Of a DNA stretch of 64,000 nt, positions 23,611 to 64,000 are shown one piece after another. The stretch comes from Chondrosia reniformis (taxonomy: Eukaryota > Porifera > Demospongiae > Chondrillida > Chondrillidae). How positions within the stretch are numbered: position 1 is the first letter of the stretch; the number at the start of each line of letters is the position of its first letter. The notes under the pieces are model-generated. The model made no database searches, was not told the origin of the DNA, and was given only the letters and a program-made list of their open reading frames with translations. A program made the position numbers and the translations under genes. The stretch spans positions 7,247,001 to 7,311,000 of the forward strand of contig OX359195.1 of the NCBI GenBank assembly GCA_947172415.1. The letters run 5' to 3'.

Positions 23611-26600
23611 TTAGAATAGCAACTTGTAGGTTACAATTTCAAAAGGGTACATTTGAACTTCAAAACTGCCACTCCACTCTTCAAAACCATCACATTCCTC
23701 CAGCATACTGCATCTGCAAGGGAGTTAACAACTATAGTTAACCAAATTATGAAAAAGAGTAAACTATGCTTAGCCTAGTTAAGTCACCTTTTAAAACTGG
23801 TAAAATTAACTGATGATGTGATTGTGGAGGTTGAATGGGCACCAAAAGATTCATAGAATCGGACGACTAGACAGTCTTCTACTAAATCTTCTCTCTAAGA
23901 AAATAATGATGGAGTAAGCTGGTCACAAGACATAAGATTAGAAGCAATATATACTTACAAACACTATTAAGAGCCACTGCTATTAGGAATAAACCAGATG
24001 CTACTGTACTTCATGGATTACCTTACTAATTGCTTGGGTTTTCAATTAAGTGTACATATGGTTACTCACGAGTTTAATGGTTTCAAGTATTACAGCAGGA
24101 TTACTGGATGTGAACAGAGAGTGCACAAGATCATGTTCTACACAAATATCATTACAATCAATAAAATAATTATTGTTTATGCCACAACATTATGTATTAT
24201 AAGCTCCACATATGGACTAACTCGAATGTTTGGTATCTGGTGGCCCCAATGATGATTTGTTCTTCACAGTCTGTAATAGCAATGGACTGTTGAAATTGTA
24301 TGCATATTGGATGACATTGGCATCCTGAAAGGAACCTGAGGCGAGAGGTTACACTTTGAAAATAGTGACAGTAAGAGATACAGAGGAAAGGGGTAGCTGA
24401 TACACATATGTATACATATACATACCTTCATGAGGCATTATACCATAGGAGAATGAGTGCTTTCCCATATCTGAATTCCCGTCTGGGGTCTTAGGGGACC
24501 TTAAGCTGCATTCCATTGAGACGAGCACAAAAGTAAAGTCACAGAAATCAGTCATTCCAAACATGTTCATGCAGACTTACAGTGACAAACTCATTACACT
24601 CCCTCTGGTGGAGTGGCCATATTTGCAATCATTTAGTAGAGATACTCCAAATCCGTATTCAGAGAGATCCACCCACTTGTGGCCGCTCACCTCAAATCTT
24701 GCTTGGTCCCAAGAGGTGTTGAAATGGGTTGGACGCTTCACATGTCCAAACTGAATCTCATATGTCGCATCTAGTGATTTGACATTGACTGGAAACTCAA
24801 CCTTCAAAATCTTATGGCTTTCATGCCAGTCAACCTACATACACACAGAGGTGACCTTGACATTTTGTTGACATTTTTGGAGGTTCCACTGTCAGCTAGG
24901 TTACCTTATACATGTGAGATTTGTGAACTATTGACATACGTATCAAGTGAATGTCTGCACTATGTTATTATTTACTTGGGTATCAAAATGCAAAATGGGG
25001 GACTCTGCCTCCAGTGAAATAACTTGATTAATAGTGCTATCCTTGCTGATCCTCAGTGTGAAGGAAACAGCTGCCCTGAGAGGTCCCCTCTCTTGAATAG
25101 ATACACATTCACCCAATAAAGGACATCTAAAACAATACAAGGTAGGATTTAGCAATTTACTTGGAAATATGTTTGATTGAATGATTGGTAATAAACAGTA
25201 GCTAACTGTATGTGCTTGACCTGAGGCTTGAAATTTAAGTGCAATTAAATGATATGCTGCACATAATTGGAAATGGCTACAGTTCAACAACACCGTATAA
25301 AGTACGTATACATTAACACAGAACCTTGTTTCCAAGTGGTATTCCATGACGTCCCAGGCATCCCAGAAGAGGGGAACATCATCAAAGATAACCATTTGAT
25401 TGGCTACTGAACTAGGAGCTACGGCTTCTCTGAAAACAGAAAGATATCATTGGTCAGTCTGTACTATGCGGGTTACATGCTCTAAAGCTTCCTTTAACTG
25501 ACCTTCTTGTCTTCTTGTATAGGAGGGAGGATACCACACCATCAGAGGTAACGGTTGCCTTGACGATGGCATTTTCTAGTACAAAGGTACTTCCAACCTG
25601 CAAATTCAATAAATCACAAAACTGTAACTGACATTATCAAATTAGTCCCATTGTTGGTATCTGAGAACACAATACTACCCTCGATCTTATTGGAGAGAGC
25701 ACAACCTGCAACTGCTCTCTTCATTGTCCTTAAACTGTGGGTACACAGGATTGGATTTGAGCCTAACTACTACAAGTGGTGTACACTGGTATAGCATGTA
25801 TTGATACATGGTGTGAATACTTATCATGATGTGATTTTAGTAAAACTGTATAAGGGTCCAATACTTGCAATCCATATACTTTCATCTGCCCATAACCTGA
25901 TATGCCATACTGTAGGTACATACCTCAGTGACAGAGACTTTATCATATTCCTCAATCACAGCAAGTTCAGCATAACCTACTCCGGGGCACTGAGTCATCG
26001 CTACAATACATTTACATATAATAAATCATGCGTATATCTAATATAGAGAGATTACCAGCAAAATCAAGGATATTTAAAAAAAAACATGCAAAGGACATAC
26101 ATATGTATATAGCATATGGTAAGTACTGTTACCACAGTGTCAATCAAGGCACCAACCTATTACATCTCCGTTTGACAATTTCTGAGCAGATTTTAGCTCA
26201 TCAGTTTTATCGTGGGAAGAGTGTGTTTGTGAACAGGAAAGGGGTACATTTACAACCTCCCTCCTCTCCCAAGCAAGAGAGTTGAAAACAAGACAGCTAC
26301 TTTCAATGTTATGCTTCTCAGAATGCTGTAACGAATCAAAGAAACAAAGTGTGTCTCAATGCTAAAATGATAGTTATGTGTCAATAAACATAAGTGAATT
26401 GGAAAGCCAAAATATATATAGTTGCTTCTCTTTGAGATAGATATGGGATTGAGTTTCAAAATAATAAAAAACCTGATTTATACTAAAACGTCCACAGGAT
26501 CACATAGTAATAGTATCTACTTGATTTATATTAAAAGTGCCCACAGGATCATATAGTAATAGTATCTACTGCACCTTGTTGACAATTCTCCTCAACAGAT

Positions 26601-29600
26601 CATCTTGGAGCAGTGTCAAGCTAGGGATAATGTCTACAGAGGAGATCCACATACGTATATAATCTATAATTTAATTATTGGTTGATCAATTGTTTCACTG
26701 AAGTTGACCAATTACCCTTTTCATAAATCTCTTTAACTTCCACATGAACCTATGGAAGGAATAAAATTAATTCTCAGTCTAGACTATGAGGAATGAACAG
26801 CTAATTGTGTTACACATACACATACGTATATTGTAAAAGCCTAAATGGACATGTAGCAGTAGGCAATTATAATATCACTATAGCAACTGTTTCCTATTGA
26901 CAGTTGTCTCATACCTTTTCAATAGAGCTCCCAGGAAGGACATCATGAAATTGGTTGAGCAACATCTTATGCCAGACAGTCTTCAAATCTGACATCTCCT
27001 TGGAGAAACCTTTAACATAGCCTTGCTGTGAAGCACACAGACTTAGTAGAAATTCAACTTGATGCAGCAGAAATTCCACCTGACGATTATACTTCTTTAT
27101 CTACAGTTAAATTAATAGCGTACTGCAACCCAAAAGGAGTCACAAATTTAATCTAATGATAAATCTTGAAAATATAAGTAACAACTACTCTTGAAAAATA
27201 CACTTAGAGACATCTTCAAAATATAAAGGATCTACAGATATGTAAGCATACTTGAGCTTGTGTGGTATACGTTCCTCTGTGCAGTTCCAAATAAAGCTCT
27301 CCTTTCCAGGCACACAAATTACTTTTGTCCTTATCTTCAACCTCCTGGAAAAATGCCTGAGGGGAACCCCCCTGAGTGACCTTTGGTATGCCATCGACAT
27401 CACCAAGTCTCTTCAGAGACTCTAACATGTCCTCCCTATGAGAACATGAATGTACTGTAGGTCAGCCATTTAATTTGATTACTGGTAGGTATGGTCAAGG
27501 TTTACTCACGTGGGGCCTCCCCCTCCATCACCATGACCAAAAAGAAGGATGGCAGAGCGACTGCGTCCTTTATCCTTGAACTGACTTTCAGTCTTCAAAA
27601 CCTATTTGTTTGGGTACATCCGAAATTGGTTTTGAAATAGAGATGAAATTACCCAAGTTATACTAACATCTTTTTGTAATTTCTATTCTATTAAACGTAG
27701 ACTGTTCATACATAACATTCATACTCACATCTGCAGCACTTCCATCACTTCCATAAGTGTCAGCAGGTGGAAAGTGTGTAAGGACGCTATAGAAACATAC
27801 GTAGATAAAAAGAAATGTGTTCTGTAACCACATGTAATTCAATATCTATTATTATTATTATTATTATTATTACTCAGCCAGGCTACTTGAACAAATTTCT
27901 CATACCTTGTTCCGTCCAATCCTTCCCACATGAATGTGTTATGCTAAGCAGTTATAAAAACATGATTAAAATTGTTCTCTAATGAGAAATAGATTGAGCT
28001 CACTGGAAACTTGTTGGTGAGGTTCCAGCTGATCTTCTGCGTCAGAAAGTACTTCATGCCTGCTTGCACTGCAATCTGGGGGAGCTGAGCTGAATAACCA
28101 AACGTGTCGGGAAGCCAAAACACAGTGGAAGATAAGCCAAATTCCTTCCTAAAAAACTCTTGTCCATAAAGAAACTGTCTAACGAATGCCTCTCCACTTG
28201 GAATGTTGCCATCCTTAAGGACAAAACACAAAGAGAGGATACTTAGTTGTAAACATATCCCAGGACGGTGTATGGCTTTGAAGTAGTATGTACTGTACAT
28301 CAATACAGTGTAAATATGCCTCAGTATACTAACCATTTCAACCCAGGTTCCCCCAACAGGAAGAAATTGTTTGGATTTGACCATTTCCTTAATGTCATCA
28401 AAGAGGCTGGGATAGTGCTCTTTAACCCAGGCCAGCTGCTGCACCTGTTGGATTTGAGTAGGCAGTGATACATGTATATACATACATATGTACAGTATGT
28501 ATGTACTCAAAGTGATAACCAAACCACAAGTAACGATTCTTAGACATCATGCAGAAGGAAAAACATGAAAGAAGTAATTGCTGGGGCTTAAACCAAAGAA
28601 CGGCCCCATTCATGTTAGGTTTGCCCTCTTATAATAACTACAAAGTAGATAATTACAATAGTTGCCATTGACACTAGGTGCTAATTGTGACAGTAATTTT
28701 GTTTATCAGCAAAAGCTGATACTAGCCAGAGAACCAGCCCATATGTGTGTATATCCACCTTACGTATGTGTATATTATGTATAATATATATGTACATATG
28801 TATATGTGTACATATGTGTACGTATATGTGTATATACGTGTACGTATATGTACCTGAACATAGGCCATAGTCTAATATAATAAAAAAGAGATATGGTGAG
28901 TACATATTAGTGCAACCACAAGTATGGGTACACAGTTCAATGACCTTTCAGCTACTTAACATGGTCAGCATCCGCTTACTTGAGAGCAGGCGAAGACATA
29001 GGAAGAATACTTCTTCATCAACAGGATCTGAGAGGCCCAGCTTCTAGCACACTTCCTTATTGTCTCCGAATATGGCCATAACCAGGCTATAGGGAAAACA
29101 GTGGAAGAGACTACAGCTGATGGTTGGGCAGCTAGTGTAAGATATGGTTCACTAACACTGCTATGGGTCAAACATTCCTACATTGTTTTAGTTAATAGGT
29201 ATATGGATGGATAGAATCATAATACTTATGAATAATCAAGTGATAATCAAACCACAAGTATTTATTCTCAACCATGAGGAGGGATACATGAAAGAATCAA
29301 TTGAATCCAGGATATAGCTGGTGGTGACCACCAGTGCTCTGCCACTGAGCCTTGTTAGATAAAGCTAGCTACGTATGTACACAACACTCTAATGTACCAC
29401 AGTCAATGCACACAACACTCTAATGTACCACAGTCAATGCACACAACACTCTAATGTACCACAGTCAATGCACACAACACTCTAATGTACCACAGTCAAT
29501 GCACACAACACTCTAATGTACCACAGTCAATGCACACAACACTCTAATGTACCACAGTCAATGTACACAACACTCTAATGTACCACAGTCAATGCACACA

Positions 29601-32600
29601 ACACTCTAATGTACCACAGTCAATGTACACAACACTCTAATGTACCACAGTCAATGCACACAACACTCTAATGTACCACAGTCAATGTACACAACACTCT
29701 AATGTACCACAGTCAATGCACACAACACTCTAATGTACCACAGTCAATGCACACAACACTCTAATGTACCACAGTCAATGCACACAACACTCTAATGTAC
29801 CACAGTCAATGCACACAACACTCTAATGTACCACAGTCAATGTACACAACACTCTAATGTACCACAGTCAATGCACACAACACTCTAATGTACCACAGTC
29901 AATGCACACAACACTCTAATGTACCACAGTCAATGCACACAACACTCTAATGTACCACAGTCAATGCACACAACACTCTAATGTACCACAGTCAATGCAC
30001 ACAACACTCTAATGTACCACAGTCAATGTACACAACACTCTAATGTACCACAGTCAATGCACACAACACTCTAATGTACCACAGTCAATGTACACAACAC
30101 TCTAATGTACCACAGTCAATGTACACAACACTCTAATGTACCACAGTCAATGTACACAACACTCTAATGTACCACAGTCAATGTACACAACACTCTAATG
30201 TACCACAGTCAATGCACACAACACTCTAATGTACCACAGTCAATGTACACAACACTCTAATGTACCACAGTCAATGTACACAACACTCTAATGTACCACA
30301 GTCAATGCACACAACACTCTAATGTACCACAGTCAATGTACACAACACTCTAATGTACCACAGTCAATGTACACAACACTCTAATGTACCACAGTCAATG
30401 CACACAACACTCTAATGTACCACAGTCAATGTACACAACACTCTAATGTACCACAGTCAATGTACACAACACTCTAATGTACCACAGTCAATGCACACAA
30501 CACTCTAATGTACCACAGTCAATGTACACAACACTCTAATGTACCACAGTCAATGTACACAACACTCTAATGTACCACAGTCAATGTACACAACACTCTA
30601 ATGTACCACAGTCAATGTACACAACACTCTAATGTACCACAGTCAATGTACACAACACTCTAATGTACCACAGTCAATGTACACAACACTCTAATGTACC
30701 ACAGTCAATGTACACAACACTCTAATGTACCACAGTCAATGCACACAACACTCTAATGTACCACAGTCAATGTACACAACACTCTAATGTACCACAGTCA
30801 ATGCACACAACACTCTAATGTACCACAGTCAATGTACACAACACTCTAATGTACCACAGTCAATGCACACAACACTCTAATGTACCACAGTCAATGTACA
30901 CAACACTCTAATGTACCACAGTCAATGTACACAACACTCTAATGTACCACAGTCAATGTACACAACACTCTAATGTACCACAGTCAATGCACACAACACT
31001 CTAATGTACCACAGTCAATGCACACAACACTCTAATGTACCACAGTCAATGCACACAACACTCTAATGTACCACAGTCAATGTACACAACACTCTAATGT
31101 ACCACAGTCAATGCACACAACACTCTAATGTACCACAGTCAATGTACACAACACTCTAATGTACCACAGTCAATGTACACAACACTCTAATGTACCACAG
31201 TCAATGCACACAACACTCTAATGTACCACAGTCAATGCACACAACACTCTAATGTACCACAGTCAATGTACACAACACTCTAATGTACCACAGTCAATGC
31301 ACACAACACTCTAATGTACCACAGTCAATGTACACAACACTCTAATGTACCACAGTCAATGTACACAACACTCTAATGTACCACAGTCAATGCACACAAC
31401 ACTCTAATGTACCACAGTCAATGTACACAACACTCTAATGTACCACAGTCAATGTACACAACACTCTAATGTACCACAGTCAATGCACACAACACTCTAA
31501 TGTACCACAGTCAATGCACACAACACTCTAATGTACCACAGTCAATGCACACAACACTCTAATGTACCACAGTCAATGTACACAACACTCTAATGTACCA
31601 CAGTCAATGTACACAACACTCTAATGTACCACAGTCAATGCACACAACACTCTAATGTACCACAGTCAATGCACACAACACTCTAATGTACCACAGTCAA
31701 TGTACACAACACTCTAATGTACCACAGTCAATGTACACAACACTCTAATGTACCACAGTCAATGTACACAACACTCTAATGTACCACAGTCAATGCACAC
31801 AACACTCTAATGTACCACAGTCAATGTACACAACACTCTAATGTACCACAGTCAATGTACACAACACTCTAATGTACCACAGTCAATGCACACAACACTC
31901 TAATGTACCACAGTCAATGTACACAACACTCTAATGTACCACAGTCAATGCACACAACACTCTAATGTACCACAGTCAATGTACACAACACTCTAATGTA
32001 CCACAGTCAATGTACACAACACTCTAATGTACCACAGTCAATGCACACAACACTCTAATGTACCACAGTCAATGTACACAACACTCTAATGTACCACAGT
32101 CAATGCACACAACACTCTAATGTACCACAGTCAATGCACACAACACTCTAATGTACCACAGTCAATGCACACAACACTCTAATGTACCACAGTCAATGCA
32201 CACAACACTCTAATGTACCACAGTCAATGTACACAACACTCTAATGTACCACAGTCAATGTGACAGTGTCCAAAAGCATGGATTTTCAACTGAGCAGATC
32301 CATTTGTCTCTTGAAAGAAATCTGTGGCACTTTTATGTAACCTGGAGGTAGTTGGAATTGATTGACTTTTGTAATTTAAGAAACTCAAGTTGTTGATTAC
32401 TTAGCAACCACTTGCGTACGTCCACTCACACTTGCAACTGTTCACTGGAAAAAGTGGTACATCCATTTATAATTTCATTTGCTTTATACAGTGCTTCAAA
32501 AGCTCTATGTGAAGTCTGTGGAATGCTCTGGAAAAGAGGGGAATATTTAATAATCACTAATGTGCAAACATTCAGGTAATGTGTCAAAAGAATGAATGTT

Positions 32601-34073
32601 TATGTATAGCAGTGTATGACCACAAATTAAACTGTGCTTGCTAAGCAACCCTATGTCCAATGGAGCATGACTAATGGTAAAGTGTGTGTGTGAGTAGAGC
32701 TCACCTTAGCAATACTCAACAACACCCTCAAGTCCATCAAGAGGCTATAGACATCAACATCAAACACTGCAACCTCTGCCCTCCTTATTGCATAATACTG
32801 TTCTGGGTTGGGAGGGTTAATCATGCCGTTCATACCTGCTCCAAACATGCCGTTAGCAGCTGCCTCAATGTAGAGACAAAATGACTCTCCCCCCTGGGCT
32901 GAGTCAGTCAGTGTAAAATCATATCTATGCTGCACATCACCACCTGTAAGCCCCTGAGCATGAAGAGAAGTTAGAAGCTAGGAAAGAGGACTTCGAAAAC
33001 AGATATAGGGATAAGCTATAAGTATAAATATAATTGATTTCATTTGGTGAAATATGTACATAAGCAAAGGTCTATGATAATATTATGTCCATAAGTTTAG
33101 GATATTGAATAATACCTAATGATTTACTAATTAAAACAAATGAAATGAAAATGAAATAATATAGAAAAAGAATAAACAAAAACAAATATAAAAATGGGAA
33201 ATGGGACTGAAAATTAATACATAGAAAAAAAAAGATTGAATTGGGCAACAAGCTGGCCCATTTGTGTGCAGTACTGAGGCTGCATCAGCCCTCCAGTATT
33301 ACCATAGAAACCCATTGAATTATATTCCAGAACAATAGCCTGGAGTCCCAATACATCTTACAGTGACCTACTCATGAATATATTGTCCCGTACCTGCAGA
33401 GGTTTTCCATTGGTCCAAATCTATATGTAGCACACACAAAAAGGAACATGTACAGATTAGATTAACAAAAGATATCGTAAAACATCCATCACACGACTGA
33501 AGATTTCACCATTGAGCACCGCTCACCATTGCTTCGCATCCACTGTCCCATCTGAACCTAACTCTCCTCCCAGTCCACCCGGCAGGAATATCAAGTTTAC
33601 ATTCAAACCAGTGAGTTGTCCATCTGTAGGAAAACGGGATCTCGAGAGACTTTTGAAGATCTCCCCTTTTGTACGACAACTGAACTCACGTCGGCCCAAT
33701 TCTGTAATTTAAGTCAACCTCGGTAGCACTCTTCAATCTCAGCACAGCATCCTCGAAAGAGATAACTTGCTCCACTTTAAAAGCTTTCAGCGAAGTCACT
33801 GGAACGCTCTCTGGATACAACCTATCAAGTAAACATACATAGAGGTAGATTTCGTTCATGAGTACGTATATATCATGTGCAAGTCCAGTACACTCTAGTC
33901 TCTACAGTGTACATGTAGCGAGGTATAGTCAACTTATTGATATAATTCTCAGTGGGACCGATGTAATATATTATTGACCTTCCTCTCAAGTTAACATCAG
34001 TGAAGTACGTGTCTGAAATAAATTTTTCCACTCTTTCAAATGTTGCCCTCCAATGTTTCTGAACAACGGCCAT
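23611..34073 (-). CDS. MAN2C1: cytosolic/lysosomal-type class II alpha-mannosidase 2C1
   Basis: GH38 enzyme that trims alpha-mannose from free oligosaccharides in the cytosol. Exons 1-28 (minus): 34073-33934, 33821-33690, 33623-33527, 33420-33394, 32929-32705, 32527-32430, 32341-32250, 29086-28980, 28444-28334, 28213-28004, 27943-27906, 27786-27729, 27601-27510, 27435-27252, 27100-26915, 26749-26716, 26633-26575, 26313-26157, 26000-25924, 25597-25503, 25429-25325, 25126-24976, 24834-24581, 24505-24426, 24335-24222, 24137-24070, 23894-23788, 23713-23611. They join to 1,066 aa (human about 1,040). Visible: N-terminal [20 protein letters not shown]; metal-site GHCHIDCAWLWP split by intron 7; [15 protein letters not shown] with the nucleophile Asp; [13 protein letters not shown] with the third metal ligand region; [39 protein letters not shown]. 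There is no signal peptide, which fits 2C1. Intron 7 holds a 2.9-kb minisatellite. Confidence 0.96.
28510..28610 (-). repeat. tRNA-derived SINE, body-only copy 2
   Basis: AGTGATAACCAAACCACAAG, then GAAGGAAAAACATGAAAGAAG and AATTGCTGGGGCTTAAACC, matches the body and B-box side of the 9697-9830 element. The tRNA-like A box is missing. Confidence 0.6.
29237..29351 (-). repeat. tRNA-derived SINE, copy 3 (MAN2C1 intron 7)
   Basis: AAGTGATAATCAAACCACAAG at one end and TGACCACCAGTGCTCTGCC, then ACTGAGCC, at the other match the SINE at 9697-9830. It lies about 25 bp from the edge of the minisatellite. Confidence 0.7.
29376..32261. repeat. 31-bp minisatellite, about 93 copies, containing the MAN2C1 exon 7 donor junction
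   Basis: The period is 31 bp without visible interruption over 2,886 bp. On the minus strand the unit is CATTGACTGTG (the last 11 bases of exon 7) followed by GTACATTAGAGTGTTGTGT plus A or G (intron). The copy next to exon 7 is the real exon-intron junction (exon ends 32250). The copies come in two forms, differing at one site (+ strand CAATGCA or CAATGTA). If splicing used any later copy, the frame would reach TGA within one unit. Confidence 0.97.
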
Positions 34074-34701: not shown

Positions 34702-37700
34702 ATGTCTAATCGCCCTCCTGCTAGTGATCGAGGCGCAATTATTCTGTTGCTGTTAATTTCTATAGGTATATAAATTGCATGTATATAGCTAATACCAATA
34801 TATATTTTGAATTATATATAATCTGTTATGCATATATAGTGTTAATTTGTGGGGCTCAATATTTTAACCTTTTTGTTATCAATGGACTACCTATAGCTCG
34901 ATTTAGTAGGCATAGCCTCGTATCTTTCCGTTTGAACTTGATCGAACAGGAAGAGCCCGTATTACCAAATTTGATAAGAAACTACTTTCTCTAAACACTT
35001 AATCAGCTAAGAGGAGCGATCTGAAACTAAGAATCATTCTAATTTGATTTTAATATATATTACACGAAGGATCCTATATATGTGTAATTAGTACGAGGTT
35101 TAAAATAAGCAATCCTTGTGATCAAAACACCTATAAACGTATAGCTATATAACTAGGTGTATAATACTAATTGCATTGTATTTTTAAACAGAGCAGATAT
35201 ATATATATATATATATGCTATTGGTATTATCTATAAAATGGTAAAAGTTATTGATGTATTCTAATTGCTTTAAAGTGTGTATTTTAAAACTGAAAGCTAG
35301 CAGTTAGGTGTTTTCCTGTTAATAACTCCTTATATGCAGTAGGCAGTAAACCATAAACATGTTTTGGATAGGAGTTTAGACAGAAACACTACTTAATCTT
35401 CATCTTTGGGAATGATGACATTTTATATTCACTTAGCATACACAGTTCAAATCTCACTGAATTGCATATGGACAAATCAACAATGGCTTTTTGATGTGTA
35501 ACAGAATGTGTATGTAATATATGTTATATATACATGTGCTCATTTGATTTATATGATTGTATATCACATGATAGTAAAACTACTAATAATTATAATCTTA
35601 AATTCACAAAAAGAGAAAAACACGAAACGGAAGTAACTATACTGGGAATTGAACCAATAATAACCGGTTATGACCACTTGTGCTTTGCCACTGAGTTTAA
35701 CCACACACAGTAATGCTACCCTCATGTCCCCCTCTTTATATATACTAACTACATGCAAAGAATTTATTGTACATTTGCATCTTTTATTCTATAATTCCCT
35801 AATAATATACATTTGCCCAAGATAATAATAATAATAATATTATTATTATTGAACTGGTTTCTACAGCATATAGTAAAATCATTAATATTGTTAATACTAT
35901 TGGTGCTGTAATCTGTCTTTCTTCATCATTTCCCTCCACCTTGCTCTGTCAGCTGCTGCACTTCTAAGTAGTTCTAAATCAGTAGTGTTGTGCAGTTTCG
36001 GGTTTCTTTCCTTAATATCAGCTTTTAGGATGTCCAGGAGGTTGGTTGTGTGATGGCCACGTCTCCCCCTGTACTTCTTGGCACCCTCTACTGCATACTG
36101 TAGGGCATTATGGGCTGGAGCATTTTGGTCCATGCATAGCACATGACCTAACATATTCCATCTAGCCTCTGTCGCTGTCTCAGATAGTGGTCTGGTGTTG
36201 CATCGCTTGTAGAGTGCCTCATTGGAGATGGTACTGTGTGGCCAATGGATAATAATAACCTCCACAAATTAGTGCAAACTGGATATGAAACTGCTCTCTA
36301 TTTGTCTAATTAAATGTATATGTAATTAATTACAATTTTGATTCTAAATAAGCACAGGTTTTGATCAGTTGATAATGAATTATCATATCTTGTCTACAGC
36401 TCAAAGGTACAATACTCTCACTGAGGGAGCAACATGTGATGACATTACTCCTAATGCAGGTGATATTCAAAGTAGCATGTGCAAAACATATTTTGGCATG
36501 TACAACAGTATACATCACCATTTACATACTGTATACGTATATACGTATATATACGCTCTTTCTCTCTTTTTTCACAATATTTATAATGTGGTTCTAGCAA
36601 TGATATATAAAAAGGTATTGCTCCAATATTATGTAAACAAAATTAAAACTAAGGACTTTGATTTATATTAGGCATTTTTCGACATACGTATATTGAATGG
36701 TATTTGATATTAATATTGTGTTGTGAAAATACAATGCACTATAATTTTTTGGCTTCTAATGAACTACATATACCAATTAGCTTATCTATATTAAGTAAAT
36801 TTCTTATAAACTAGCCAAAACTGAATTGATTTGTCATATACTATACACATGTTTTAATGTGTTATGATTCCAAACAATTATATAATGTAGATGTAGGATA
36901 TACGTACGTGTAACTGTATGTACGTACGTACGTATGTTTTGTGCATGGAAATGTTAATATTCATGCCTTTGTTGCATTTATTTTATTCCAAAATGGACAA
37001 TCATTTTCCAATCCAATTTAATAAATATACAAAACTGTCACTAGCTAAAACTATATATATATGTATATACTTACAGCATTATATATATACAGTACTTAGT
37101 AACTACATATTATGCTAATTTTTTACATACAGTAAAAAGCAAAAATGATCTTTAAAGTATTCCATATACATTATAATGTTTTATCTCTTTGATAATTTCC
37201 TCAATATTGTAATAATACGTAGTTCTACTTACTTCTAACCTCTGGGCAGACACTTGTTTATCCTAATTCTTTACTTATATATTTCTAATCTAAGTATTTG
37301 TTGTGCTATATAGAAGTATCAGTGAGACTGGTGGGTGGGTCCCATACAGCTGAGGGAAGAGTAGAAGTATTTTATGAAGGAGAATGGGGTACCATTTGTG
37401 ATGACGATTGGGGTATAGGTGATGCTGGGGTCATCTGCAGAATGCTTGGATATCCAACAGCCTTATCTAGTAAGGGAAATTCAGCCTATGGTGAAGGAAA
37501 TGGGACCATTCTCTTAGATGATGTCCAATGCAATGGAGATGAAGCAAACATAGCTGATTGCAGTCATAGTGGATGGGGAGTTAGCAACTGTGACCATGGA
37601 GAAGATGCTGGTGTGGAGTGTTCAAGTTGGTTTTGCATATACAATGAAGACCTTGTGTCATAGTTAACCTGTTCCATATACTAATCTGTTTCTGATGCTC

Positions 37701-40700: not shown

Positions 40701-43700
40701 TAAGTATGTATGTCATTTTTAGTACATTATTATTTACTAAATAATTCTCCATAATGGTAGTAGTTCCTGGACAAGTTAGCAATATCCAGATTACTCAGAC
40801 AGTATCCAATGGAATGACCAATTTAAGAGTTACATGGAATCAGCCAACCAGTGATCGTCCCATACAACACTATGAAGTACAGTACAGGAAACAAGGTGTA
40901 TCCAGTTGGACCTCAGTAACACCAAACCCAACCACCAGACAGACTATTATAAATAATGTGGATAAAGGTAGTGTTTATAATGTTCGAGTGAGAGCTGTGT
41001 CTGATGTTGGATCTGGACAGTGGAGAAGTGCTACTAGTCAGAGGACATATAGAGGTAGGCAATTAAGACATTTGATTTTTTATTTTATATATACGTATTA
41101 GAAGTATATGTCATTTCCATGTTATGATTTATATATTTTTAAAGCAATGTCAATTCCTAAATTGTTTTAATATGTACGTATTATAATGATTCTCCATATT
41201 GCTAATTGTTATGTAGTTCCACCGCAAATTAGCAATGTTCAGTTTAATCAGACAGTATCCAATGGAATGATCAATTTAAGGGTTACATGGAATCAGCCAA
41301 CCAGTGATCGTCCCATACAGCACTATGAAGTACAGTACAGGAAACAAGGTGTATCCAGTTGGACCTCAGTAACACCAAACCCAACCACCAGACAGACTAC
41401 TATAAATAATGTGGATAAAGGTAGTGTTTATAATGTTCAAGTGAGAGCTGTGTCTGATGTTGGATCTGGACAGTGGGGAAGTGCTACTAGTCAGAGGACA
41501 TATAGAGGTAGGCAAGACAGTTGAATGCTTTATTTTACGTATATTAGAGGTATATATCATTTCCATGTTATGATTAAAGCAATGTCAATTCCTATTAAAT
41601 AAATTGCTATAATATTTGTATTGTAATGATTCTCCATATTGCTATATAATTGTTATGTAGTTCCACCGCAAGTTAGCAATATTCAGTTTACTCAGATAGT
41701 GTCTAGTAGAATGATCAATTTAAGGGTTACATGGAATCAGCCAACCAGTGATCGTCCCATACAGCACTATGAAGTACAGTACAGGAAACAGGGTGTATCC
41801 AGTTGGACCTCAGTAACACCAAACCCAACCACCAGACAGACTATTATAAATAATGTGGATAAAGGTAGTGTTTTTAATGTTAGAGTGAGAGCTGTGTCTG
41901 ATGTTGGATCTGGACAGTGGAGAAATGCTACTAGTCAGAGGACATATGGAGGTAGGCAAGACAGTTGAATGTTTTATTTACGTATATTAGAGATATACTG
42001 TATGTCATTTCCATGTTATGATTAAAGCAATGTCAATTCCTATTATTTAAATTGCTATAATATTTGTATTGTAATGATTCTCCATATTGCTAATTGTTAT
42101 GTAGTTCCACTGCAAGTTAGCAATATCCAGATTACTCAGACAGTATCCAATGGAATGACCAATTTCCAAGTGACATGGAATCAGCCAACCAGTGATCGTC
42201 CCATACAGCACTATGAAGTACAGTACAGGAAACAAGGTGTATCCCGTTGGACCTCAGTAACACCAAACCCAACCACCAGACAGACTACTATAAGGAATGT
42301 GGATAAAGGTAGTGTTTATAATGTTCGAGTGAGAGCTGTGTCTGATGTTGGATCTGGACAGTGGGGAAGTGCTACTAGTCAGAGGACATATAGAGGTAGG
42401 CAAGACAGTTGAATGTTTTATTTACGTATATTAGAGTTATATGTCATTTCCATGTTATGATTAAAGCAATGTCAATTCCTATTAATTAAATTGCTATAAT
42501 ATTTGTATTGTAGTGATTCTCCATATTGCTATATAATTGTTATGTAGTTCCACCGCAAGTTAGCAATATTCAGTTTACTCAGATAGTGTCTAGTAGAATG
42601 ATCAATTTAAGCGTTACATGGAATCAGCCAACCAGTGATCGTCCCATACAGCACTATGAAGTACAGTACAGGAAACAGGGTGTATCCAGTTGGACCTCAG
42701 TAACACCAAACCCAACCACCAGACAGACTATTATAAATAATGTGGATAAAGGTAGTGTTTTTAATGTTAGAGTGAGAGCTGTGTCTGATGTTGGATCTGG
42801 ACAGTGGAGAAATGCTACTAGTCAGAGGACATATGGAGGTAGGCAAGACAGTTGAATGTTTTATTTACGTATATTAGAGATATACTGTATGTCATTTCCA
42901 TGTTATGATTAAAGCAATGTCAATTCCTATTATTTAAATTGCCATAATATTTGTATTGTAATGATTCTCCATATTGCTAATTGTTATGTAGTTCCACCGC
43001 AAGTTAGCAATATCCAGATTACTCAGACAGTATCCAATGGAATGACCAATTTCCAAGTGACATGGAATCAGCCAACCAGTGATCGTCCCATACAGCACTA
43101 TGAAGTACAGTACAGGAAACAAGGTGTATCCCGTTGGACCTCAGTAACACCAAACCCAACCACCAGACAGACTACTATAAGGAATGTGGATAAAGGTAGT
43201 GTTTATAATGTTCGAGTGAGAGCTGTGTCTGATGTTGGATCTGGACAGTGGGGAAGTGCTACTAGTCAAAGGACATATAGAGGTAGGCAAGACAGTTGAA
43301 TGTTTTATTTACGTATATTAGAGTTATATGTCATTTCCATGTTATGATTAAAGCAATGTCAATTCCTATTAATTAAATTGCTATAATATTTGTATTGTAG
43401 TGATTCTCCATATTGCTATATAATTGTTATGTAGTTCCACCGCAAGTTAGCAATATTCAGTTTACTCAGATAGTGTCTAGTAGAATGATCAATTTAAGGG
43501 TTACATGGAATCAGCCAACCAGTGATCGTCCCATACAGCACTATGAAGTACAGTACAGGAAACAGGGTGTATCCAGTTGGACCTCAGTAACACCAAACCC
43601 AACCACCAGACAGACTATTATAAATAATGTGGATAAAGGTAGTGTTTTTAATGTTAGAGTGAGAGCTGTGTCTAATGTTGGATCTGGACAGTGGAGAAAT

Positions 43701-46700
43701 GCTACTAGTCAGAGGACATATGGAGGTAGGCAAGACAGTTGATTTTTTTATTTACGTATATTAGAGATACATATGTCATTTCCATGTTATGATTAAAGCA
43801 ATGTCAATTCCTATTATTTAAATTGCCATAATATTTGTATTGTAATGATTCTCCATATTGCTAATTGTTATGTAGTTCCACTGCAAGTTAGCAATATCCA
43901 GATTACTCAGACAGTATCCAATGGAATGACCAATTTCCAAGTGACATGGAATCAGCCAACCAGTGATCGTCCCATACAGCACTATGAAGTACAGTACAGG
44001 AAACAAGGTGTATCCCGTTGGACCTCAGTAACACCAAACCCAACCACCAGACAGACTACTATAAGGAATGTGGATAAAGGTAGTGTTTATAATGTTCGAG
44101 TGAGAGCTGTGTCTGATGTTGGATCTGGACAGTGGGGAAGTGCTACTAGTCAGAGGACATATAGAGGTAGGCAAGACAGTTGAATGTTTTATTTACGTAT
44201 ATTAGAGGTATATGTCATTTCCATGTTATGATTAAAGCAATGTCAATTCCTATTAAATAAATTGCTATAATATTTGTATTGTAGTGATTCTCCATATTGC
44301 TATATAATTGTTATGTAGTTCCACCGCAAGTTAGCAATATTCAGTTTACTCAGATAGTGTCTAGTAGAATGATCAATTTAAGGGTTACATGGAATCAGCC
44401 AACCAGTGATCGTCCCATACAGCACTATGAAGTACAGTACAGGAAACAGGGTGTATCCAGTTGGACCTCAGTAACACCAAACCCAACCACCAGACAGACT
44501 ATTATAAATAATGTGGATAAAGGTAGTGTTTTTAATGTTAGAGTGAGAGCTGTGTCTGATGTTGGATCTGGACAGTGGAGAAATGCTACTAGTCAGAGGA
44601 CATATGAAGGTAGGCAAGACAGTTGAATGTTTTATTTACGTATATTAGAGATATACTGTATGTCATTTCCATGTTATGATTAAAGCAATGTCAATTCCTA
44701 TTATTTAAATTGCTATAATATTTGTATTGTAATGATTCTCCATATTGCTAATTGTTATGTAGTTCCACTGCAAGTTAGCAATATCCAGATTACTCAGACA
44801 GTATCCAATGGAATGACCAATTTCCAAGTGACATGGAATCAGCCAACCAGTGATCGTCCCATACAGCACTATGAAGTACAGTACAGGAAACAAGGTGTAT
44901 CCCGTTGGACCTCAGTAACACCAAACCCAACCACCAGACAGACTACTATAAGGAATGTGGATAAAGGTAGTGTTTATAATGTTCGAGTGAGAGCTGTGTC
45001 TGATGTTGGATCTGGACAGTGGGGAAGTGCTACTAGTCAAAGGACATATAGAGGTAGGCAAGACAGTTGAATGCTTTATTTTACGTATATTAGAGGTATA
45101 TGTCATTTCCATGTTATGATTAAAGCAATGTCAATTCCTATTAATTAAATTGCTATAATATTTGTATTGTAGTGATTCTCCATATTGCTATATAATTGTT
45201 ATGTAGTTCCACCGCAAGTTAGCAATATTCAGTTTACTCAGATAGTGTCTAGTAGAATGATCAATTTAAGGGTTACATGGAATCAGCCAACCAGTGATCG
45301 TCCCATACAGCACTATGAAGTACAGTACAGGAAGCAAGGTGTATCCAGTTGGACCTCAGTAACACCAAACCCAACCACCAGACAGACTATTATAAATAAT
45401 GTGGATAAAGGTAGTGTTTATAATGTTCAAGTGAGAGCTGTGTCTGATGTTGGATCTGGACAGTGGAGAAATGCTACTAGTCAAAGGACATATAGAGGTA
45501 GGCAAGACAGTTGAATGTTTTATTTTACGTATATTAGAGGTATATATCATGTCCATGTTATAATTAAAGCAATGTCAATTCCTATTATTTAAATTGCTAT
45601 AATATTTGTATTGTAATGATTCTCCATATTGCTAATTGTTATGTAGTTCCACTGCAAGTTAGCAATATCCAGATTACTCAGACAGTATCCAATGGAATGA
45701 CCAATTTCCAAGTGACATGGAATCAGCCAACCAGTGATCGTCCCATACAACACTATGAAGTACAGTACAGGAAACAAGGTGTATCCAGTTGGACCTCAGT
45801 AACACCAAACCCAACCACCAGACAGACTACTATAAGGAATGTGGATAAAGGTAGTGTTTATAATGTTCAAGTGAGAGCTGTGTCTGATGTTGGATCTGGA
45901 CAGTGGGAAAGTGCTACTAGTCAAAGGACATATAGAGGTAGGCAAGATAGTTCTATAATTATAGGAGGTAAATAATGTATTTGGTATTATTTATTAATCC
46001 AACGTTGTATAACAATGAACTCTGCTGTTAAATAATGTATAATTCATAAATAACCAGAAATATACATGTGTTGCTGTAACAAAGGCAAGAAGGTAATTAT
46101 TGTAATAATTTGTGTAACAGCAACATTAGATCTTCGGTATAGAAAATTTCAACCCATAGGTCTTCATCAGCAGTAGATCTAATGTGGCTGTTGCTCAATA
46201 GTGTTTATATTTCAAATATAAATTTGAGTCACAAATATTTTCAGCATTATTTATTCTCTATATTATAGTTCCCAGTACAGTAACAGGTTTATCACTACAG
46301 CACAGAATAGTTTCCAGCAATCCAGCTATCCTAATCTCTTGGACCAGACCTTCAAGTGAAAGACCTGTTCTACATTATGAAGTACAGTACAGGATCAACG
46401 GTACCGATAGTTGGAGCATCCTATCACCAAACCCTAATACTACATCGACAACTCTGCAATCACTTCAACTTGACACTGCCTATGAGGTTAGAGTGAGAGC
46501 TGTGTCTGATATTGGGATTGGAGGATGGAGCATCATTGTCAGTGGAGATACACATAGCAGTAAGTGAATATTAGTTCTTTAATTATTGCATGATTATTGA
46601 CAAATTAATCCACTCTTATACATACGTATACATACGTACATACATACGTACTCTTATACATACGTATATCTTACCAACTTAAAGTCTAGTAGTGTAGATT

Positions 46701-49700
46701 AGGATGCAAGCAGGACCAATTTTGTTTACATTCAATGGTAGGCTACAGTTGTGTAATACTTTTCCTTAAAAAAACCCAAGTAAATGTTAAAGGGATGTTT
46801 GTACCTATATTTTATTCCAATCCATATATCACTTGAATCCTTTAGTACCCGATCAAGCCACTAATGTAATGCTAGTCCAGAGTATCACATCTGGACAGCC
46901 TTCTCTTAACGTCACCTGGACTCCTCCTTCAAGTGATCAAGCAATACTGTATTATGAAGTAGAGTATAAAGTTAGTACCTCAGACAGTTGGACATCGCAG
47001 ACTCCAAATCCAACAGCTACATCAACTGTGTTGGAAGGTCTTCAAATTGGGATATCTTATAAAGTGAGAGTGAGAGCTGTGTCTGAACTTGGGAGTGGAA
47101 CATGGAGCAGTGAAGTTCAAAGTGTTACATTTGATAGTAAGTCAGCTGCTCTAAATAAGTGTCAAAAGCTGCTCTAAATAAGTGTCCAAAGCTGCTTAAA
47201 TAAGTGTCCAAAGCTGAGACGACTGTACTAAATTCTTCTTTTTTTATAAAAATTCTGCATGCTCTGCACTATACAACATATGGCAATAGACCTTAATATA
47301 TTATTAGAGCTATAGATAAGGCTACGTAAGTATGGTACTTCATCTCGTCATTCAGAGGAAAATGATCAGATGGAGACAGACAGTATTTCTGATATTTCAT
47401 GAAAAATCTAATACTGTATACCATTTTCCTACATGCTATGCCTATTCTTTAAAAAGCCTATAGGGGAACTGAGCCTGAAGGGTGAAGATACAGGAGTCTT
47501 TTCTTTCTTCATTTCCTTTCAACTTCTTTCATCTTCTTCTCCACTGGGTCAGACAGCTGTTTCTGGGAATTCCACCCAGCAGTGATACTGGGAGTCTTTG
47601 TCTTTTTCTTTATCTTGTACTATTCATCAGCTACTTAAGGAGTATTTAATTTGTTGGCCCATGTAATCCTCTCAGTATATATATATACATTAATCATTCC
47701 ACATATATATGTGTTATACAGTTCCTAGTACTACAAGAGGTCTCATGTTGCAAAATAAAGTGATTTCCGCAAAACCGGCAATACTAGTTTTCTGGAGTCC
47801 ACCTTCAAGCGATAGAGTTATTCTACATTATGAAGTGCAGTACAGAGTCAATGGCACCGCCAGTTGGAGTATGCTGTCTCCAGATCCAACTACTACATCA
47901 GCCAATCTACCCAATCTTCAACTCAGAACTGTTTACCAAGTGAGAGTGAGAGCTGTGTCTGATCTAGGTAATGGTGCATGGAGCAGCGAAATTGAAGAGA
48001 CTACAGAAAATGGTATGTACTTCTAACAATATTTCCAGATCAAAATGTTGTATATATATACATATATAAGTACTGTATATGCATATATATGCATATGTAA
48101 AGAAATAACTTAGTTTATTAAGATGTTTTTGTATGTTCATATGTATGTATGTACATATGGATAATCTAGAGCACAATTTCTTAAAGACATGGTGGATTTT
48201 CCACAAAAGCTTGAGTTAGCAATTGGTCCTCTAAAAGCCTTTGGTCCTTGGGTAGAATTTCCACCTCAGCTACAGTACATCTGAGATGCTGCAACAGTCT
48301 ATGTGTGTGCATACGTACATACATATAATAACCCAACATTGATACGTACATATATAGATAAGATTAGCAATTCAATTTGTTGGTTTTCAGTTCCAGGTAA
48401 AGTGTCTAATATAATGGCATCTGCAAGTATTGTATCTGGACAACCATCTATAAATGTCCAATGGAATCCACCTTCAAGTGACCAAGCAATAGTTTATTAT
48501 GAAGTAGAGTTTAAAATCAGCACAAGAAACAGATGGACAACACATGGTTCAAACATAACATCAAATTTGACTAGTTTGACTGGTCTGAATCTCGGAGAGA
48601 GGTACCAAGTAAGAGTAAGAGCTGTCTCTGTTCTTGGAAGCGGAGACTGGAGTGATACAGTGGAAGAGGTCACTTACAATGGTAATTCAGTCTCTACTTG
48701 AGTGTGTCCCTTATAACACACACTCTTCCTCTTCTTATGGTTCCACTAGTTCCTAGAGCTCCATCCAGTGTGTCACTGCAAAATTCTGTGGTTTCCAGCA
48801 ATCCAGCCATTTCCATCTCCTGGACTAAACCACCAAGCGATAGAACTATTCTACACTATGAAGTACAATATAAGATCAATACTACATCTACTTGGAGTGT
48901 ACTTTCACTTAACATTTCTACTACATCTGCTACACTGAAAACAGTACAGTTAGGAAGTGCTTATGAAATACGAGTGAGGGCTGTGTCTGATCTTGGAAGT
49001 GGAGTGTGGAGTGAGGTTGCTAATATAGTAACAATAAATAGTAAGTGTTAAATCACTAATTTTTGTAATATGTTGCACTCTACCTGTAACATGTACACTG
49101 TATGTACATATAAAGGCTATTACTATAAGGTTTATAAGATTTAACATAGATTTTCGCTTCACTTCTTAACACGGCACACTTTTAACTATATATTTATGTA
49201 TAATTCCGAAATATTATATTCTCTTAGCACCAGATCAAGTGACTAATGTAATGCTAGTCCAGAGTATCACATCTGGACAGCCTTCTCTTAACGTCACCTG
49301 GACTCCTCCTTCAAGTGATCAAGCAATACTGTATTATGAAGTAGAGTATAAAGTTAGTACCTCAGACAGTTGGACATCGCAGACTCCAAATCCAACAGCT
49401 ACATCAACTGTGTTGGAAGGTCTTCAAATTGGGATATCTTATAAAGTGAGAGTGAGAGCTGTGTCTGAGCTTGGGAATGGAACATGGAGCAGTGAAGCAG
49501 AAAAACCTACTTTCAATAGTAAGACCAACATATATACACATACATTACTTGATAATGTGAACCAATTTAAAGTCTTTCTAATTATTCAGCTTGCAGTTAA
49601 TAAGTAACTGAAAATATTTTCTGCTCCCATATTATTTCCCTATAAATATTAATCCTGTGTAAAGGTTGGTTTCAGCATGCACAATCAATTTAATTTCTTT

Positions 49701-52700
49701 CTATAGTTCCTAGGCCTCCTACAGAACTGTCATTGCAAAGGACATTGGATTCCAACAATCCAGCATTTGCTGTAACCTGGGTTCATTCTTCTACAAGTGG
49801 TAGCCCTATTCTGCATTACGAAGTGCAATACAGAGTTAGTGGCACAGCGAGCTGGAGTGCACTATCATCAAACCCAACTACTACATCTGCTACATTGTCA
49901 TCACTTCAAACTGGAACATCTTACCAAGTGAGAGTGAGAGCAATTTCAGAAATTGGAAGTGGCAATTGGTCTGACTATGTGTCAGAGACTACATATAATG
50001 GTATGAATAAACTGTACCTTTATGCGTTATGTATATATGTATATATGCTGTATATAGACTTTTCACTTTACTGTAAAACATATTTATCTTCCAAAGTTCC
50101 TGAAGCAATCGGACCAGCGACTGTACTTCAATCTGGAGATCCTACTTCACCTTCACTCAACATTTCTTGGTCAGTACCTCCAAGTGACCTTCCAGTGCTT
50201 TACTATGGAGTGAACTATCGGAGGAACAATACACGACTCAAATGGCTTGAATATAATACAACTGATACAATAGCTATTTTGAACAATCTTCAGTCAGGAA
50301 CTGTTTATGAAATCAGGATATATGCAGTATCTGTACTTGGCAAAGGAGAATATCGCTCAGTATATAGTGTAACCACCTTTAAAGGTAAGAAAGAATCTTT
50401 GGTCTTCACTGTTATGTATACGTAAGTGCTTATGTGTTTACACACATATATAGCATGTATAGAAAGAGGGTAGGTTGTATCATACTTATGTACGCTTCCT
50501 TTTTAGGCTTATTCACATCAAGTGTCGGTAAGAACAAGGTTATACTGTACATACGTATTATACATAATATACATAACATATAGTATATGGATTGTTTACG
50601 TACATCCCTACTTTGAGAGTACTACCGTGCTCTATCCAAATTGAGGTTGATAGGTTTCAATCTTATACAAACCTATCTTCCCTATAGAGTCATCTTCTTC
50701 CGATGCAACAGCACCAACAAGTAGTGAGAGTGAGTGTCCAATATATTACTGTGCAGTATTTTTGGAATTGCACAGAACATTGTACAATATGGTATATATA
50801 TAATATTTTAAACATATACGTATATCTATTCTACAGTTATACCCACTTCTACAAGCACAACATCGTCAACAACAATTACTCCTACCCCACCCCCACCTAG
50901 TAAGTTAGTAAATGTATATATTTCCTACCCCACCCACACCTAGTAAGTTATATTTCCTACCCCACCCCCACCTAGTAAGTTATATTTCCTACCCCACCCC
51001 CACCTAGTAAGTTATATTTCCTACCCACCCCCACCTAGTAAGTTATATTTCCTACCCCACCCCCACCTAGTAAGTTATATTTCCTACCCCACCCCCACCT
51101 AGTAAGTTATATTTCCTACCCCACCCCCACCTAGTAAGTTATATTTCCTACCCCACCCCCACCTAGTAAGTTATATTTCCTACCCCACCCCCACCTAGTA
51201 AGTGTATATACAAACTTATGCATACGTATATACTATATGTTACTTTATATCTCTGATATTATGTTTAGGTTGTCCAGAAATATTTATGTTCACTGGAGCT
51301 TTAGTTGGTGAGATCCAGTCCATACCATGTTCTTCTCTGAGCCCAAACCTCTACGGTGGTAGAATAACTATCGAGTGCCTGGAGAGTGGAATGTGGGGCA
51401 CACTGGATATTTCACAGTGCACATTCAAAAAGGAAGGAGTAAATGGTCTTCTTCTTGTTGAAGTAACTGAGGAATCTAAAGTGCTTTATGTAAGGGGTTC
51501 CATATTTTATACAGTATTAATACATACTCCAGGGTAAATCCTTTTTCTATCAAATAGTCCCATCAGATTGTAAATGGAACATCATATTCTGTCATAGTCC
51601 TTGAAAATCCTGATATCAGCGAAGTCAATAACAATCTCAAAGAGAAAGGATTTGATGGATCAATGCTATTTATGGATAAACTAGGTATATACGTACAGTC
51701 TGTATAACTTTTGGGATGGTACATCCTTCGACTTTTGAGTGTTTAAAAACGCAGTTTTGTTTCATTTCTTGGTCAAACATTTCGACCCTGGGGATCTTCT
51801 TCAGTGACTGAGGTATCATCCCAAAGATAGGTTTGATGCAGTTAGAAGGAATCTTTATTCTAGCCAAGTAATGTGAAATGTTTATTGTGGTTTGTTGGTA
51901 CATAATTAAACCAATTGGGATGTATATGCATATAAATATGTAATGTACGTATGTATAGTTATTATAAAAGGGAGGGTTTGTAAGAGTGTCAATCTATATA
52001 TTATATTCTCAGATGAATGCAGCTGTTGTGACACAAATTCAATAATAATTTCTGGATCCCTCAACGATTCTTATTCTGTCTGCTTTGGAAGTATTGGATC
52101 ACAATCAGCTTGCACATGTAGGGGAGAAGATAATATAGTAAGTATGAGTCAATGTATTTATATATATTATATTATGTATATATAGATCACTGTGTATATA
52201 TATATATTCTGTATTATGAATAATATAGAACATATAATCATTTCCTGTAGATATGGTCGACGTGTTTCATGTGTGACTAAGTAATCAATTGATTAAAGGA
52301 AACTGTATTCCTTGACGTTTTATGTACTTATATATATACACAATGAAGTGGGTAACCGGTATATTTTATATACTTATGTATATTATAAATCTAAAACTAC
52401 ACCTATGACCTATGACCTATGACCTATGACCTACAACTATAAGATAGGGAATTAAACATAAAGAGTTTTGGATATAGACAAATCTTAATTAAAAGCCTCT
52501 GTTCCACTGGGTTGTGTGAAGATTAGTAGTATATTTATTCTCCAGTGTAAAGCTCTTTACATTACTACTGCGGATCAAATGTGCACTTTGGATGTGGATG
52601 AAGATGGAATACCTGATTCCAAGGTGAATAGCTTCGTATATATTTCTGCTGATGATCATACGTATATACATATATTGTACTTACTGCACTAAAGTGACTA

Positions 52701-63663: not shown

Positions 63664-63664
63664 G

Positions 63665-63898
63665 TAAGTCACATGCTCATTTTACATACATAAGTCAAAA
63701 GTCACTTGCTCAAATGTGTGTTTTGCATACATAAGTCACAAATCACTTGCTCAAATGTGTGTTTTGCATAAATAAGTCACAAGACCCATGCACTCAAATG
63801 TGTGTTTTGCATAAATAAGTCACAAGACCCATGCACTCAAATGTGTGTTTTGCATAAATAAGTCACAAGACCCATGCACTCAAATGTGTGTTTTGCAT
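63665..63898. repeat. 41-43-bp minisatellite starting at an FN3 exon donor
   Basis: The intron begins GTAAGTCACATGCTCATTTT. Units with AAGTCACAAGACCCATGCAC, TCAAATGTGTGTTTTGCATA and AAT then repeat about five times. The start of each unit resembles the start of the intron. Confidence 0.92.
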
Positions 63899-64000
63899 GT
63901 TAAAGAAAGATAATATAATAAGTATGGTAACTAAAATTTAGTGTTACAGTAATATGTAGATCTTGACTTACTCCATGCTATATACTTTAACCCCGTAGCA

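Follow-up and report, generated by a model that had tools for sequence, protein, structure and literature searches.

Minisatellites that copy an exon–intron boundary are a rare, already described kind of tandem repeat, and their name, mirages, was reportedly given by Canestro in 2002. In amphioxus, where tandem repeats spanning an exon–intron boundary go by this name, splice signals are present in many of the copies, not all, the length varies between alleles, and reverse transcription PCR (RT-PCR) suggested that splicing is undisturbed (PMC3087553). PGBD5, Adh and troponin C of the lancelet are further cases (PMC3902484). Here we describe an additional, unusually long one in a 64,000-nucleotide stretch of the genome of the demosponge Chondrosia reniformis (GenBank assembly GCA_947172415.1, contig OX359195.1, positions 7,247,001 to 7,311,000 of the forward strand; hereafter the window), in which predicted exon 7 of the alpha-mannosidase gene MAN2C1 passes directly, on the minus strand, into a minisatellite made of 93 copies of its own junction with intron 7.

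Related arrangements are known outside amphioxus. The minisatellite of human IFI6 (6-16, G1P3) is said to supply multiple splice donors (Turri et al. 1995), and its unit is reportedly 12 bp long and in frame. Two downstream repeat units of this gene are used as donors (PMC4526556). In human segmental duplications, minisatellites with units of about 30 bp occur, some at exon–intron boundaries, together with alternative transcripts (PMC2812944), and large minisatellite clusters lie in intron 1 of a working metallothionein gene of the earthworm (PMC12783039).

The MAN2C1 array has the same layout as the amphioxus mirages in Adh, the globins BflGb6 and BflGb9, troponin C and PGBD5, since its unit lies across the predicted exon–intron boundary and the authentic boundary stands at the edge of a cluster with 92 inner GT donors. 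However, BflGb6 contains 6 and 3 units of 150–160 bp in two haplotypes, with 81–100% identity, and repeats the 3′ end of its intron, whereas the MAN2C1 array repeats the intron 5′ end in 93 units of 31 bp that differ at a single site; units of Adh3 measure 10–72 bp. Moreover, amphioxus mirages are known with length polymorphism and RT-PCR, whereas the MAN2C1 array is known from the sequence of one haplotype alone. The likeness to IFI6 is that the MAN2C1 units also carry donor sequences (93/93), but the inner units of IFI6 give rise to further mRNA species, whereas those of MAN2C1 are all predicted to lead to a stop (92/92 inner donors), and the frame-keeping unit length attributed to IFI6 has no counterpart here. 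The average in the segmental duplications is 4 repeats, and the emergence of new introns was proposed there, whereas MAN2C1 holds 93 and intron gain is not proposed. The earthworm gene shares a large intronic minisatellite, and the excerpt of that report does not state a splice site within the units. The copy number, the near-identity of the units and the stop that follows each inner copy distinguish the MAN2C1 array from these cases. No array of this type in MAN2C1 was found among the literature matches listed, which include 10 of 1,849 papers matched by the name of the gene, the sponge literature being judged by title.

An array of MAN2C1 exon–intron junctions

The anatomy of the array, its reading frame, the homology of its edges and its homogeneity are read directly from the DNA. 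Tandem Repeats Finder (TRF) reports a period of 31 and 93.1 copies, a unit-by-unit reading gives 93 full units running from 32260 to 29378, and a search with the unit pattern, allowing up to three mismatches, returns the same 93 matches and none elsewhere in the window (mean of 0 in 100 shuffles). The first-pass annotation, made from the letters alone, had proposed about 93 tandem copies of the junction, and all three approaches bear this number out. It had placed the array at 29376–32261; TRF agrees on the right edge and puts the left edge at 29375, and full units stop at 29378. Each unit comprises 11 exon bases, or 12 including an A/G-variable base, and 19–20 intron bases, so that the earlier division into 11 exon and 20 intron bases holds as claimed and becomes 12 exon bases if the variable base is counted there. 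The last 11–12 bases of exon 7 are the exon portion of the unit. The only variable position is the last base of the unit (...TGTGTA in 48 units, ...TGTGTG in 45), and a GT donor is present in 93/93 units, each with GTACAT. There is no N in the window, and the units are in phase from end to end.

When exon 8 was joined to each of the 93 donors, 1/93 junctions stayed in frame, and 92/92 inner donors gave the same truncated product and a stop. Both earlier proposals, that the outermost copy is the authentic donor and that any inner copy causes truncation, are upheld at the predicted junction, where the first of the 93 donors alone keeps the frame.

The MAN2C1 gene model

The identification of the gene as MAN2C1, also made in the first pass, is confirmed by the joined exon peptide, which matches the Pfam domain Glyco_hydro_38N of GH38 alpha-mannosidases (6e-65) and aligns with the solved alpha-mannosidase Ams1 (1.1e-63). 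The latter alignment is gap-free through GHCHIDxAWLWP, placing the HID...AWLWP motif across the exon 7–8 junction as had been suggested, and a splice-aware alignment returned the coordinates originally given for both exons (Table 1). In this alignment, 481 of 973 aligned residues are identical to the guide, a human MAN2C1 sequence. Exon 7 and intron 7 are identical across four gene models. A donor 3 bases upstream was disfavoured by eye, as it yields HIDSWLWP, one residue fewer than the GH38 motif. The model carries a heavy penalty on stops, its gene ends are unrefined, and two of its introns have poor donors (24217 and 25324); it is a good model, yet no proof that the gene is intact.

Intron 7 (3163 bp) stands out from the other introns of the model, of which the longest measures 535 bp (median of all 27, 127 bp). 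With the array cut to one unit, it would measure about 308–311 bp.

Table 1. Positions of the array, of MAN2C1 and of other arrays in the window
Feature	Position	Strand	Details and basis
31-bp minisatellite	29375..32261	−	93 full units and a partial one; ACAT at each edge; one A/G-variable site
Outermost GTACAT, predicted authentic 5′ splice site	32244..32249	−	Splice-aware alignment
MAN2C1 gene model	23689..34058	−	28 coding exons, 27 introns, zero in-frame stops; splice-aware alignment
MAN2C1 exon 7	32250..32341	−	92 nt; ends GHCHID + TGT G; splice-aware alignment, Pfam, Ams1 alignment
MAN2C1 exon 8	28980..29086	−	Splice-aware alignment
MAN2C1 intron 7	29087..32249	−	3163 bp, phase 1
Second donor-copying array	50837..51209	+	Predicted exon 50837–50899, donor 50900; 32-bp minisatellite 50917–51209
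FN3-exon donor 63664 with 43-bp array	63664..63898	+	TRF start 63680, 16 bases into intron; FN3 by Pfam
FN3-exon donor 47137 with 23-bp array	47137..47216	+	TRF start 47144, 7 bases into intron; FN3 by Pfam
42-bp array in REV3L-like intron	12349 to 12534–12579	+	Array starts 12355, 6 bases past donor 12349
49-bp × 2 repeat (array 26474) in MAN2C1 intron	26574–26314	−	Starts 4 bases past donor; weak acceptor

Origin and turnover of the array

The motif ACAT is found at each edge of the array, in the exon as cACATtg and in the intron as gtACATac, exactly 93 × 31 bases apart, which suggests slippage between two ACATs lying 31 bp from each other. Since both outer edges carry A at the variable site, G looks derived and A ancestral. 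The order of A and G is unclustered: it contains 51 runs, compared with a mean of 47.5 after shuffling, its longest repeat is 11 (P 0.53), and no higher-order structure was found in the A/G order of the 93 units. Turnover was simulated under six models with 150 runs each, scoring runs that reached at least 51 A/G runs. This number was reached in 0/150 runs with single-unit slippage, 0/150 with blocks of mean 3 and 53/150 with blocks of mean 8; under conversion, in 0/150 within 5 units, 14/150 within 20 units and 45/150 with conversion anywhere.

A tRNA-derived element resembling a short interspersed nuclear element (SINE) lies near the 3′ end of the array, at a distance of about 12 bases (29227..29362 on the minus strand) (core 29227–29350, 5′ end set by eye), with 74% identity to 9689–9817 (E 1e-17). 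This SINE-like family is dispersed in the window, with members at 29227–29362, 28510–28580, 9689–9817 and 35602–35717. A tRNA-SeC call at 9752–9827 (Rfam tRNA, 36.2 bits) is probably the head of a SINE and no tRNA gene.

Donor strength and splice-site choice

The exon 7 donor is weak. On a simple matrix it scores −0.9, the third lowest of the 27 donors in the gene model, and pairing of the array donor with U1 reaches −4.1 kcal/mol against −15.0 kcal/mol for the consensus, in a duplex outside the splice-site register. Because the donors are alike in core sequence, position must decide between them. The outer donor would be favoured by exon definition, which starts here from the exon 7 3′ splice site, and by the order of transcription, and intron definition would favour inner donors. 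Among splicing factors, SRSF1 favours intron-proximal and hnRNP A1 intron-distal donors (PMC5585400). From the open reading frame, one would expect the outer MAN2C1 donor to be used to a sufficient degree.

A hairpin concealing the inner donors was rejected, since RNA folding is no better than that of shuffles (z −0.83 for exon plus array, −0.20 for the inner array). By eye and in the fold, the A/G site preserves the pairing of GUACA with UGUAC or UGUGC, and a 9-base stretch of exon 7 is able to pair with CUGUGGUAC. Recursive splicing through ratchet points was rejected as well, as neither the array nor intron 7 contains an AGGT (0 in each).

Explanations for the array

We propose that the array is probably a mirage-type minisatellite born from the exon 7/intron 7 junction of MAN2C1, with the outer donor being spliced and the rest tolerated as intron. 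Its birth would have been a single duplication between the exon ACAT and the intron ACAT 31 bp apart, followed by growth to 93 units that multi-unit unequal exchange or long-range conversion may have homogenised. Splicing would occur at the outermost copy, since exon 7 and the 3′ splice site belonging to it would define the first downstream donor and this copy is transcribed first, and the remaining copies would leave with the intron. Occasional use of an inner donor would result in a premature stop and probably in nonsense-mediated decay. The 93 units with one variable site, the ACATs at the edges and the scrambled A/G order support this explanation, as do the stop-free 27-intron MAN2C1 model and a second donor-copying array in the window (see below). 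By analogy, the like layout of the published mirages and their reported non-interference with splicing would also speak for it.

Several points weigh against a tolerated mirage. The use of the outer donor is something that we infer, and the freedom of the MAN2C1 model from stops is partly built in by its heavy stop penalty. The weak donor (−0.9) offers no advantage over identical copies, and MAN2C1 introns are mostly short, so that pairing across the intron would favour the innermost donor and an intron of roughly 310 bp. Two published cases also weigh against it: human IFI6 uses inner units as donors (PMC4526556), and for 66% of the intron-type repeat changes surveyed in humans there was also a transcript with the repeat retained in the exon (PMC2812944). 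No relative free of the array was seen, which says little as the comparison covered prokaryotic and viral contigs. The 31-bp unit pattern had 0 matches in prokaryotic genome contigs and 0 in viral contigs, and the exon-5 peptide had no relative in the viral contigs and one distant bacterial locus, left unused, in the prokaryotic contigs.

The weakness of the donor also makes competition plausible, and the array could act, as the first-pass annotation had suggested, as a copy-number rheostat in which inner donors compete, so that a longer array means less MAN2C1 via truncated, decayed transcripts. The core splice site is identical in all 92 inner donors, each of which runs into the same stop, and inner units do serve as donors in human IFI6 (PMC4526556). 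However, equal competition between 93 donors would come close to silencing the gene, yet the MAN2C1 model is open (with stops penalised), and amphioxus mirages are reported not to disturb splicing. We consider such a rheostat unlikely.

The near-complete identity of the 93 units indicates recent expansion or fast turnover, and it is conceivable, albeit quite unlikely, that a recent harmful expansion has left the sequenced allele damaged or low in expression, with the other allele or a tolerance of low MAN2C1 compensating. Any use of an inner donor would cut the protein short early in the GH38 N domain. However, no coding damage was found elsewhere in the MAN2C1 model (stops penalised), and the second donor-copying array in a nearby gene suggests that such arrays are tolerated.

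A random-like order of A and G would also be expected from reads misplaced by multiples of 31 bp, in which case a real array might have been assembled with a wrong copy number or with its A/G pattern scrambled by misaligned reads. Since the window is without N and the units are in phase throughout, we regard this as improbable. Finally, 93 donor copies within one intron, a single AATAAA in intron 7 (within the SINE-like part) and an excess of G over C on the sense strand of the array (skew 0.52) could be read as a selected RNA element, for instance a bank of U1-binding sites guarding a long intron against early polyadenylation or retaining the transcript, but this is very improbable given the poor, out-of-register U1 match, folding that does not exceed shuffles and the fact that without the array there would be no long intron needing protection.

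Other arrays in the window

The second donor-copying array comprises 10 GTAAGT donors between 50900 and 51198, with units that hold about 20 exon bases. Open frame and splice consensus are the only criteria behind its exon pair, whose joined peptide has no Pfam match. The first donor is in frame and predicted to be authentic, and 9/9 inner donors lead to a stop. In AT-rich sequence (window GC 36%), it is not in itself unlikely that both donor-copying arrays run into a stop as early as their first inner unit. In the neighbourhood, SRCR and FN3 are clear Pfam matches and 7tm_2 falls just below the cut-off; these SRCR, FN3 and 7TM domains near 50917 may belong to one gene. Together with short introns and the 36% GC, this neighbourhood would fit a demosponge-like source rather than amphioxus.

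Two further arrays follow donors of FN3 exons. In both, the donor is GTAAGT and the inner copies have ATAAGT instead (5/5 at 63664 and 3/3 at 47137, with the register set by eye). The intron holding the 63680 array was assumed to end at 63998. A copy of the FN3 exon at 49224–49497, 97.8% identical to 46842–47115, has a donor without an array. At 40772–45952 on the plus strand, a 444-bp exon-plus-intron unit is repeated in about 11.7 copies, and its FN3-like domains alternate between two subtypes. In the REV3L-like locus, where DNA_pol_B_exo1 matches the downstream exon only and a separate gene model also picks donor 12349, every array unit also contains a strong 3′-splice-site-like CTCTCCCCCTCAG.

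Overall, the start of 6/9 arrays lies no more than 18 bases from a predicted donor, and those at 1008, 13631 and 28800 lie away from donors. With limits chosen post hoc, the number expected is 2.5 under uniform placement (P 0.010) and rises to 3.6 (P 0.051) when the final 45 bases of introns are closed to placement. The sample comprises 9 of the 14 TRF rows with a period of at least 20; excluded were the 444-bp exon-scale array, the near A/T-only arrays 19381 and 52159, which lie outside modelled introns, and the duplicates 50917 (period 127) and 63699. Window-wide gene models yielded 60 introns, and removal of two shorter than 50 bp left 58, at least 3 of which are spurious; errors of these models include a wrong REV3L path within the 12349–12579 array and a wrong zero-length XDH exon, and figures for the 58 introns are rough and were not used. 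Given the post hoc limits, the anchoring of arrays at donors is a lead.

Taken further, this genome might repeatedly seed minisatellites at 5′ splice sites, with MAN2C1 as a 93-step donor ladder whose copy number would set its output, because the outermost donor alone yields a working enzyme. At 47137 and 63664, the inner copies would have been silenced at the first donor base (ATAAGT for GTAAGT), as though working copies had been counter-selected. We hold this extended reading to be unlikely.

Implications

To our knowledge, choice among identical neighbouring 5′ splice sites has mostly been studied in designed two-site minigenes. The MAN2C1 array is a potential natural test of this choice, offering 93 donors of which one is workable, with errors that would be readable as extensions of +31n. 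It may extend mirages from amphioxus to another animal lineage, and donor-anchored minisatellites may be common in the lineage of this sponge.

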